NCBI GenBank assembly: GCA_017540175.1
Contig: JAFYBN010000119.1
Coordinates: 21,979-85,978 of the forward strand
Reading direction: 5' to 3'
Source of the DNA: Clostridia bacterium
GTDB lineage: Bacteria; Bacillota; Clostridia; Oscillospirales; CAG-272
Length of the DNA: 64,000 bases
The notes under the pieces are model-generated. The model did no database searches. It was not told the DNA's origin and saw only the letters and a program-made list of their open reading frames with translations. This document shows, one piece after another, positions 46,037 to 48,595 of the stretch. Position numbers and translations under genes: made by a program. The stretch's first letter is position 1. Each line of letters begins with the position of its first letter.

Positions 46037-46702
46037 ATGGTGGATCAGATCCCAAAGCTCGAGCCCATGGCGGAGTTCTTCAACCGCCGTGTGGACGGAT
46101 ACGAGGAGCATCAAAAAAGCGCCGTGGACGGCGCGCCAGAGCTTTACTCCGTTACCGCTTCCCTGCTTCCTGTCTGGCCGGGATGCCGCGTGCTCGATCT
46201 GGGCTGCGGGACGGGGCTGGAGCTTGACGAATACTTCCCGCTCAATCCGACCGCCGAGGTCGTCGGGATCGATCTCGCCGCGGACATGCTCGCCGTGCTT
46301 GAAAAGAAGCACGGGGCCAAAAAACTGACCCTCGTCCGTGCTTCGTATTTCGAATACGACTTCGGGACCGGCGTATACGACGCCGCGGTTTCGGTCATGT
46401 CCCTGCATCATTTCACGAAAGAGCAAAAGCTCCCGCTGTATGAAAAACTCCGCGCCGCTCTGCGCGAGGACGCGCCCTTTGTTCTGACGGATTATTTCGC
46501 GCCGGACGACGCGTTCGAGGCACAGCGCTTCGCGGAACTGGAAGAACGCAAAATTCTCTCCGGCATCAAGGACGGGGGCTCGTACCACTTCGACACGCCG
46601 CTTACCGCCGCACATGAGACGGAAGCCCTGCTCGCCGCCGGGTTCACGGAGGTGAAGCCCGTCCGGCAATGGGGCAACACCGTCACGCTTCTCGCGCGGT
46701 AA
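46037..46702 (+). CDS. Class I SAM-dependent methyltransferase
   Basis: A 221-residue methyltransferase. CRVLDLGCGTGLELDEYF is motif I, VVGIDLAADMLAVLEKK motif II, and YDAAVSVMSLHHFTKEQKLPLYEKLRAAL the motif IV/V region. Start at 46037 follows AAAGGAG. Small soluble enzyme; substrate unknown. Its original downstream terminator appears to have been split by the element at 46738-47470. Confidence 0.88.
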   Translation: MVDQIPKLEPMAEFFNRRVDGYEEHQKSAVDGAPELYSVTASLLPVWPGCRVLDLGCGTGLELDEYFPLNPTAEVVGIDLAADMLAVLEKKHGAKKLTLVRASYFEYDFGTGVYDAAVSVMSLHHFTKEQKLPLYEKLRAALREDAPFVLTDYFAPDDAFEAQRFAELEERKILSGIKDGGSYHFDTPLTAAHETEALLAAGFTEVKPVRQWGNTVTLLAR

Positions 46703-46746
46703 GGCTTTCCGAACAAAACAAAGAATCCCGGAGACTTAGTACTGCG

Positions 46747-46762
46747 CTGATATAGAAGTTTT
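46747..46762 (+). repeat. Left inverted repeat of the cargo element
   Basis: CTGATATAGAAGTTTT, matched exactly in inverse orientation at 47452-47467. Confidence 0.85.
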
Positions 46763-46763
46763 T

Positions 46764-46804
46764 CGCCATAGTATTTCTGATATTCAGTCAGAAGTACTAT
46801 GGCG
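46764..46804. repeat. Left-end long hairpin
   Basis: A 17-bp stem (46764-46780 with 46788-46804) closes with one G-T pair and a 7-base loop. It directly abuts the left inverted repeat and ends seven bases before the gene's -35 box. It may be recognised as a structured end, or may insulate the cargo promoter from outside transcription. Confidence 0.85.
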
Positions 46805-46810
46805 TTTCTA

Positions 46811-46839
46811 TTGACAGTGCAGAGATTCTATGCTATAAT
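46811..46839 (+). promoter_or_regulatory. Promoter of the cargo gene
   Basis: TTGACA (46811-46816), 17 bases, TATAAT (46834-46839). Both boxes are perfect and lie inside the element. Confidence 0.88.
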
Positions 46840-46878
46840 TGTTACTAACATTAATCGGAATTTGCTGGAGGAATGAAG

Positions 46879-47382
46879 ATGTTGATACAGGAAGCATGCG
46901 AGCTGTTAAAAAAAGAGCTTTTGGATAACGGTTATGTATATGGATTCTACTTGAACGGGACCGTATACAAGCCTGATATGACGAAAGGTTTTGATAAAGA
47001 GTTCTTTGACTGCTTACTGACTCAATACCGCATTCAGGATCCAGAAGACACAATGAGGGAAAAAGTAGGCACGTGCCATGATGCTGTCATTTTGATGAAA
47101 ACCCTCTTGGCTAATCATGACGTTTCAAGCAAAATATGGTTGCTGCATGATAAACAAAAGGACAAGTTTCATACCATATTAACCTTTTATCTGGAAGGGA
47201 AAACAGTCTATTTGGAACTGACTCCTCAGTCCAATAAACCGTGGTATGGAAAAGAAATCATATTTGATAGTGAACAGAGTTTTGTGAATGAATACAAGAA
47301 AAATGATCGTGATGTAATTGATGTCACTGATGCCGTTATTATAGGAAAAACTCCTGATTTTTTGCTGTCAAGGATGGTTTGA
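46879..47382 (+). CDS. Transglutaminase-like cysteine protein (element cargo)
   Basis: A 167-residue cytoplasmic protein. ATG 46879 is preferred over ATG 46873 because GGAGG (46867-46871) is seven bases from it. EKVGTCHDAVILMKTLL fits the GxCxDxAxLLxxLL hallmark of the transglutaminase-like (papain-fold) superfamily with Cys66. KFHTILTFYLEGKTVYLELTP supplies His98 and a possible third residue, Glu113 in place of the usual Asp. Roles in the superfamily include protease, crosslinker, deamidase or toxin; none can be chosen here. Codons are AT-rich (many TTA, TTG, ATA), unlike the neighbours, which points to horizontal origin. Confidence 0.75.
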   Translation: MLIQEACELLKKELLDNGYVYGFYLNGTVYKPDMTKGFDKEFFDCLLTQYRIQDPEDTMREKVGTCHDAVILMKTLLANHDVSSKIWLLHDKQKDKFHTILTFYLEGKTVYLELTPQSNKPWYGKEIIFDSEQSFVNEYKKNDRDVIDVTDAVIIGKTPDFLLSRMV

Positions 47383-47422
47383 TAAATTCTGATTTATCTT
47401 ATAAACCGTATAAAATACAATG

Positions 47423-47450
47423 CCTCGAAGCCTTTTGAAATGCTTCGGGG
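47423..47450. repeat. Right-end hairpin of the cargo element
   Basis: CCTCGAAGC (47423-47431) pairs with GCTTCGGGG (47442-47450) with one mismatch, directly inside the right inverted repeat. No T run follows on the plus strand, so it is a poor terminator. Confidence 0.7.
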
Positions 47451-47451
47451 C

Positions 47452-47467
47452 AAAACTTCTATATCAG
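47452..47467 (-). repeat. Right inverted repeat of the cargo element
   Basis: AAAACTTCTATATCAG, the exact complement of 46747-46762. Confidence 0.85.
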
Positions 47468-47503
47468 TACCGACCTTTTAATCCCGGGATTTTTGTTATG
47501 CGT

Positions 47504-48595
47504 CTATTTCCCCTGCGCCATGCGCCTTGCCTGAGCAAGGAGGGCAAGCGCGGCAGGGATCAGGGACAACACGGCGATCCCCACACCGAGGATCGGTCGG
47601 TTTTTGCACACCCACAGCCAGTACGTGGGCAGGAACAGGCGAACGAAGCCCACCGCGGGGACGAGCAGACCCGCGTCCCACGCGATCGGGCAAAGGGCGG
47701 GCGTGAAAAGCAACACCGCGAAGGCAAGTCCCTGCCGCCACGCGCTTGTCTTCAAGAGATACGAAGCAGCGGCGGCGAAGGAAAAGGCAAGCGTGATCCA
47801 GCACACGGAGCAGAGCGCGAGCATGCCTCCCACGGGCGAGCCGAAAAGCCGCATTCCAAAGCAGGCGAGAAGCACCGCGCAGACGAGACAGAACCACGCG
47901 CCGAGAAGTTCGGGCAGGAGCAGAGAGGTCAGCGTGTTTCTCGCGCCGAGCCGACCCGCGAGTTCCGTTCGCGAGAAGCTGCGGTCCGTCTGGAACATCA
48001 CGGCGGAAAAGCCGAGCAGAGCGAGCGCTCCCATCGCGTACGCGAGTCCGCGCGGCTCCGGGGCTGTCCGCTCCGCGCCGTCTCTCACGACGATCTCGAA
48101 GGTGAACTGTGCGCCCTCCATGGTCATTTCACGATAAATCGCGTCATAATCCGCGGAATCGACTCCGACCTCGTCGAGTCCGTCCGAGGAGACGATGCGG
48201 GCGCGTTCATAAAAGATGGCGGCGGCCGCCTGGTTCCGGATCAGTGTGGGGACGTAGGAATCCGGCGTCTCGAGAAAGACCGCGTGAACGTCGCCGCTCA
48301 GAAGGCTCTCCCCGAATCCCTTCGGAAGAAGAACGCCGCAGTCGAGCCGGCCTTGCGCGATTTCCTCGCGCAGAACATCCTCGCTGCCCACAGCGGCAAA
48401 TCCCATGCTCTCGAGCCTTGCCATGATTTTTTCGGAAAGCTCGGAGTCGTCATCATTCGCTGCGCCGACGGGGGGAAGCCCCTCCTTTTCACCGATCAGG
48501 CACGCCGCAAGCAGAGCGAGAACGAGAACAACAAGCAGTACGGGAAACCAAACCGTTCGCATCAGACGCTTCATATGAAGCAGACAGGTATTCAT
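47504..48595 (-). CDS. ABC-2 type exporter permease, second subunit
   Basis: A 363-residue membrane protein starting MNTCLLHMKRLMRTV at 48595. One N-terminal helix (VWFPVLLVVLVLALLAACLIG) is followed by an extracellular domain of about 130 residues and then five or six helices (GLAYAMGALALLGFSAVMF, LLGAWFCLVCAVLLACFGM, MLALCSVCWITLAFSFAAAASYLL, GLAFAVLLFTPALCPIA, ILGVGIAVLSLIPAALALLAQ). This is the ABC-2 layout. It overlaps the preceding permease by four bases and is last in the operon. Confidence 0.85.
   Translation of the reverse strand: MNTCLLHMKRLMRTVWFPVLLVVLVLALLAACLIGEKEGLPPVGAANDDDSELSEKIMARLESMGFAAVGSEDVLREEIAQGRLDCGVLLPKGFGESLLSGDVHAVFLETPDSYVPTLIRNQAAAAIFYERARIVSSDGLDEVGVDSADYDAIYREMTMEGAQFTFEIVVRDGAERTAPEPRGLAYAMGALALLGFSAVMFQTDRSFSRTELAGRLGARNTLTSLLLPELLGAWFCLVCAVLLACFGMRLFGSPVGGMLALCSVCWITLAFSFAAAASYLLKTSAWRQGLAFAVLLFTPALCPIAWDAGLLVPAVGFVRLFLPTYWLWVCKNRPILGVGIAVLSLIPAALALLAQARRMAQGK

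Follow-up and report, generated by a model that had tools for sequence, protein, structure and literature searches.

A dispersed family of one-gene hairpin elements with a bias towards intrinsic terminators in gut and rumen Clostridia

We describe a dispersed family of elements in Clostridia, one copy of which lies within the 64,000-nucleotide stretch of genomic DNA analysed here (the window). That this family is mobile, mostly carries a single gene per unit and is biased in its insertion towards intrinsic transcription terminators is well supported. The fuller reading, to which we assign a probability of roughly 0.8, is that of a non-autonomous, transposon-like one-gene cassette that is moved in trans and prefers terminators. 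The cassette runs from a terminal repeat through a terminator-like hairpin, a constitutive promoter and an inner repeat to the gene, and then through a second inner repeat and a hairpin to the opposite terminal repeat. In the proposed scheme, an enzyme encoded elsewhere would move it, preferably into the stem-loop of an intrinsic terminator and with no visible target duplication. Because insertion would fall within the terminator stem-loop, the neighbouring genes would be left intact, and the hairpins of the element could replace the terminator that had been split and might thus insulate the neighbours.

Seated inside a neighbour's stop signal, the family looks like a low-harm means of passing single genes between species, and it may benefit both host and element. 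It would provide gut and rumen Clostridia with a route of single-gene transfer that needs no element-encoded integrase or transposase, could account for isolated small accessory genes in these bacteria, and would mark intrinsic terminators as landing sites that tolerate insertion. The family also supplies well-defined ends for tracing the enzyme that moves it, and natural expression cassettes, complete with promoter and hairpins, for genetics in these hosts.

The window element and its cargo

The window element comprises about 744 bp of low-GC DNA (about 46737-47480) between an upstream methyltransferase-like gene (46037-46702) and a permease-like ORF that is convergent on the minus strand with its 3' end at 47504, both neighbours being named by eye. 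The marked drop in GC content reported in a preliminary description of this DNA is from about 0.60 to 0.37-0.39. Judging from other copies, the true ends of the element are probably near 46737 and 47480, which would place the left terminal inverted repeat (TAGTACTGCGCTGATATAGAAGTTTT, plus strand) at 46737-46762 and the right one (minus strand) at 47452-47480. Within them lie the perfect 16-bp inverted repeats first described (46747-46762 and 47452-47467). With up to three mismatches, this 16-bp sequence has three matches in the window, two of them exact, where 0.17 would be expected; across the whole genome the only exact matches are the window pair, and looser matches do not exceed a reversed-pattern control (8+16 vs 18+24). 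The window element is a single copy in its own genome. The AGTAC that had been pointed out at both outer edges is there, but as part of the terminal repeats (TTAGTAC... on the left and ...GTACCGACC on the right), and is not evidence of target duplication.

The left subterminal hairpin (46764-46804, plus strand) has the 17-bp stem previously attributed to it, with arms at 46764-46780 and 46788-46804 and one G.T pair; it is followed by a T-rich stretch and is terminator-like, and in the family its stem is kept by compensatory changes. A right subterminal hairpin is likewise present (47421-47452, plus strand; TGCCTCGAAGC...GCTTCGGGGCA), but its stem is 11 bp long with one G.T pair (47421-47431/47442-47452) and not the 9 bp originally claimed. 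The interior, all on the plus strand, agrees with the account of one gene and a consensus promoter lying fully inside. It holds a sigma-70 promoter, TTGACA-N17-TATAAT (46811-46839, with TTGACA at 46811-46816, a 17-bp spacer and TATAAT at 46834-46839), the left copy of an inner repeat, IR2 (AACATTAATCGGAATTTG, 46847-46864), the cargo ORF (46879-47382), which is preceded by GGAGG, and the right copy, IR2' (AAATTCTGATTTATCTTA, 47384-47401), which is inverted relative to IR2.

The cargo encodes a protein of 167 residues whose earlier designation as transglutaminase-like is supported by its residues. Cys66, His98 and Glu113 are invariant in all 11 full-length sequences aligned, and Glu113 may be the third residue of a Cys-His-Asp/Glu set; the Pfam DUF553 match, however, is weak, falling at 18.3 bits (E=0.0017) below the cut-off of 20.5. 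A papain-like or transglutaminase-type activity appears likeliest. The protein, for which a defence, toxin or immunity role had been suggested, had no match in PADLOC or NCBIfam and no credible match among PDB sequences. Among 98 relatives, the gene is found in the window genome and otherwise only as a single 23% match (G020), and no relatives of the cargo were found in viral contigs. The closest homologs share 81-89% identity (L025-L028, L034, L036), and the hairpin element was not seen at these loci. A search for the window terminal repeat with up to four mismatches near 12 cargo-homolog loci, two of which end at the gene, gave no match placed like an end.

Distribution, conserved ends and cargo of the family

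The same ends occur around different cargo in other genomes, a recurrence that the preliminary description had proposed looking for. BLAST of the element against 98 relatives located both ends in G049, where they flank a GNAT gene; G089 also showed several ends. R1, a structure profile for the left end, was built from five sequences and then applied in the family in which it matched best. In the window's family, 13 of 246 genomes have R1 matches at E<=0.01, and only the window's own genome, G049 and G566 reach 65 bits; in the order, 14 of 394 genomes match at E<=1e-4, although five of these rest on matches of less than 37 bits and may be chance. Matches at E<=1e-6 are present in 18 of the 197 genomes of family f26, which we infer to be the family of Ruminococcus albus. 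The richest genome of f26, G700, has 17 matches in 16 distinct places, because one hairpin was matched on both strands, and is followed by G762 (13) and G780 (11). Two plasmids of R. albus 7 carry the element, as a complete copy on pRUMAL02 and a left end on pRUMAL01. Weaker R1 matches in G491 and G556 were rejected since they looked unrelated when read, as was a right-end match in G008 that by eye was a chance likeness within a gene.

In total, 48 left ends were read, 37 of them with a right end also; at 10 of the 13 left-end loci of one reading set, the right-end search gave no match. Changes on both sides of a stem pair were found at 10 of the 17 pairs of the left hairpin (0 of 500 shuffles), in an alignment that had been fitted to the model. 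Of the 48 left ends, 31 have a perfect promoter, and its 17-bp spacing is kept in 35 of the 38 that have at most two mismatches. Six Rfam matches all fell far below their cut-offs. Neither the left hairpin core nor the array site described below was found in scans of viral contigs; one phage record has a left-end-like match (E 8e-4, 75% over 73 bases). A literature search, in which coverage of subscription journals was mostly missing, found no description of such elements.

Behind the promoter and in the same direction, 28 of the 37 both-ended copies (the window copy and 27 others) carry a plausible gene-length ORF, while three have dubious ORFs and six lack an ORF of 80 residues on the promoter's strand, the one that the search covered; in L199, L112 and L115 a minus-strand ORF is longer. 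Of the 31 ORFs predicted, 27 were scanned together against Pfam, the window protein was scanned separately, and the dubious ones (L080, L115 and L097) were left out of the scan. At E<=0.001, 20 of the 27 scanned proteins match a family and seven match nothing. The matched cargos are seven GNAT proteins, two PNPOx-like proteins, two alpha/beta hydrolases, and one each of S66 peptidase, Imm42, APH-like, dCTP deaminase, PRK-like kinase, cytidine deaminase-like, DUF2716, DUF3267 and DUF6756, the matches of L226, L228 and L262 lying below the curated cut-off. Imm42 is an immunity family, and many of the other cargos belong to enzyme families; no transposase or recombinase is among the 20 Pfam-matched cargos of the 27 scanned. 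Gene-free units of 200-280 bp also exist (L259, L261 and L099).

Several arrangements of the elements were observed in passing. At L234 and L225, two left ends stand in tandem about 700 bp apart and in one direction, so units can stack. What by eye is seemingly the same IS3-type insertion sequence occupies the right-hairpin loop of two different elements of G780 (L337 on contig C20 and L340 on contig C23). In L094 (contig C42 of G566, about 1500-2410), a large inverted-repeat unit, non-coding and interrupted by an N gap, fills the interior of an outer element and gives the appearance of one mobile element nested in another. In sister species, outer elements at the same locus (L111, L112 and L115; L099 and L110) have kept their ends and differ in their non-coding interiors.

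Probable insertion into intrinsic terminators

The flanks beyond the terminal repeats are often reverse complements of each other and rejoin into an intrinsic terminator. Among the both-ended copies minus the 2.2-kb composite L241, the ungapped flank complementarity score reaches 8 in 17 of 36, compared with 62 of the 1260 mismatched pairings, and none of 2000 permutations did as well. Folding and tail counts were made on 34 copies, with the orthologs L112 and L115 removed in addition to L241. The mean folding energy of the joined flanks is -15.7 kcal/mol, against -9.9 kcal/mol for mismatched pairings; 25 of 34 fold at -12 kcal/mol or better as opposed to 332 of the 1122 mismatched pairings, with none of 5000 permutations attaining the observed total, and 20 of 34 at -16 kcal/mol or better as opposed to 76 of 1122. 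The nine copies that miss -12 kcal/mol include the complete R. albus copy (-3.4 kcal/mol). In 13 of 17 strong helices, at least six of the ten bases after the right arm are T, and eight of the 17 have an A-rich lead. No target duplication was seen by eye in the flanks of the copies.

The flanks of the window element look like a split host terminator, a feature absent from the preliminary description. The putative left arm (AATCCCGG, 46724-46731, plus strand) is downstream of the methyltransferase gene, and the putative right arm (CCGGGATTTTTG, 47484-47495, plus strand) is itself palindromic. The pair folds at -18.2 kcal/mol, but 24 of the 1122 mismatched pairings do no worse, so the window case is suggestive only and it is the family that carries the argument. 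The window is also among the four of the 17 strong helices below the T-tail threshold, with five T in ten bases.

Mobile insertion cassettes (MICs) carry passenger genes. MITEs (PMC10969869) resemble the present family in having terminal inverted repeats, no transposase and dispersed copies. The family differs from MITEs and MICs in that no target duplication was seen, no partner IS is known and insertion is biased to terminators, and in its conserved promoter and hairpins around a varied, single-gene cargo. The nearest precedent for the target is provided by IS1272 and TnSha1, which are reported to delete part of the target hairpin and to produce no target duplication (PMC4923244, PMC5678879). 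The likeness extends to insertion in a terminator or stem-loop, the lack of a reported duplication and little sequence preference, and TnSha1 also spreads a passenger gene. Both, however, carry a DDE transposase, whereas the family described here carries none, has no matching enzyme that we could find, and holds varied cargo in a fixed promoter-hairpin frame. Insertion by REP-targeting insertion sequences such as IS1397 is likewise tied to palindromic DNA, but the target there is the repeated REP sequence (PMC1525189), while the terminators here differ from copy to copy.

Mobility and candidate moving enzymes

Evidence that the family is mobile comes from units common to different genera at unrelated loci. 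In G721 and G683, which belong to different genera, copies of one unit that by eye carries a DinB-like gene without a Pfam match share 91.3% identity across 771 bp, both ends among them. For the unit with the S66 peptidase, found in G652 and G700, again of different genera, identity is 93.1% across 1067 bp that span the left end and the gene; no right end could be recognised in G700. These matches break off at the unit or close to it, in surroundings that are otherwise different. Together with the recurrence of the ends around other cargo, they support the original proposal of a mobilised single-gene cassette that lacks a transposase. They also contradict the notion that the element is not mobile at all and is instead an old promoter-terminator module inherited in place, its genes being swapped by ordinary recombination. 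This idea draws on L111, L112 and L115, copies from three congeneric species that share a locus (L111 and L112 by BLAST, L115 by eye), but with copies on plasmids also counting against it, we consider it very improbable.

An empty site for the window copy had been suggested as a further check. No precise one was found, the relatives in the genus differing downstream. The DUF711-methyltransferase gene pair is kept in 8 of 24 other genomes of the genus; seven of these were read past the methyltransferase gene and have no element, a different gene following by eye. A strict empty-site search compared the joined flanks of nine elements with 297 genomes. The flank of one element, a conserved gene read by eye as yebC, proved widespread, but with unrelated DNA downstream, and several of these loci have by eye an intact terminator downstream, which supports, but does not prove, a terminator target.

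Two candidates for an enzyme acting in trans were considered. No transposase with matching ends was recognised when the terminal repeat was searched in five genomes and 14 loci were read for ORFs. An IS1272-like DDE transposase of the IS1182 family would suit the target, as IS1272 and TnSha1 are reported to enter hairpins, several of them confirmed terminators, without target duplication (PMC4923244, PMC5678879). We nonetheless regard this candidate as unlikely: only 5 of the 18 genomes with elements have a PF13751 match, which in four cases is short or weak, the terminal repeats of the element are absent from all five loci, and G700, despite its 16 element places, has no PF13751 match. An enzyme specific for hairpins, such as a single-strand (HUH) transposase, would accord with subterminal hairpins at both ends, the lack of visible target duplication and insertion into a loop, though IS200/IS605 elements do not typically have long terminal inverted repeats, and we regard this candidate, too, as unlikely.

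Inner repeats and gene arrays

IR2-like sequences border the closest homologs of the window gene wherever a contig end does not cut them off. L026-L028 carry GACAAATCGGGATTTG without a change, as L027 and L036 do TTGACAACTCCCGGTTTG, and variants occur elsewhere. Several of the homologs sit among small genes on one strand; the gene row of L027 follows a rumA-like gene (PF05958), and rumA-like gene-end fragments recur by eye between cassettes in L026, L027, L036 and L151. The presence of IR2, a repeat that the preliminary description did not mention, beside the same gene in other genomes, in some cases within arrays, suggests cassette exchange.

A tentative extension, compatible with the terminator-preferring cassette moved in trans, is that genes are captured at two levels in an integron-like manner, single genes entering and leaving two platforms at IR2. 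These platforms would be the terminator-seated hairpin element and the gene arrays, some of them beside rumA-like 3' ends. IR2-like borders do flank the transglutaminase-like gene outside hairpin elements, and the motif GAYAAATCGGGATTTG, with at most one mismatch, is present in 16 of 19 genomes chosen for it, the reversed control giving none. Homologs of 5 of 39 element cargos, including the window gene, occur in 82 kb of array-type loci, and two of the others are alike; since 7 of the 20 array-type loci (one region counted twice) were found via the window gene, the fairer comparison leaves it out, with 4 of 38 cargos as against 1 in 75 kb of flanking DNA (self-match excluded), a small excess. 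The differing interiors at orthologous outer elements, established partly by eye, also fit such exchange, but the interiors that have turned over are non-coding, no recombinase is linked to IR2, and its conservation could instead mark a site targeted by group II introns or a signal in an untranslated region.

Integron cassettes offer a comparison. They too are small single genes of an adaptive type, and the array loci recall them in having genes in one direction with palindromic sites between. The integron attC core is GTTRRRY, from which the array site GAYAAAT differs; an integron cassette gene is promoterless, whereas the hairpin elements carry their own promoter. It is conceivable, if short of probable, that gut Clostridia possess a gene-capture system distinct from integrons, in which IR2-bounded genes pass between arrays and terminator-inserting platforms. 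If true, the platforms would supply the promoter, the hairpin terminators and the transposition ends, and adaptive genes would spread with little damage to the host.

In form, the array loci L026, L027, L034, L036, L151, L153 and L161 are integron-like, consisting of small one-strand genes (GNAT, NUDIX, S51 peptidase and others) with palindromic GACAAATCGGGATTTG-type sites between them. At the starts of G700 contigs, the 5' ends of group II introns begin inside IR2, at either end (L330, L331 and L332, RF02005; L328 by eye), so IR2 may serve to border cassettes, to receive introns, or both. The window's own genome (G000) has two array-type sites with one mismatch each, on contigs C43 and C116 (L158 and L159); both are near contig ends, perhaps where the assembly breaks at repeated cassettes.
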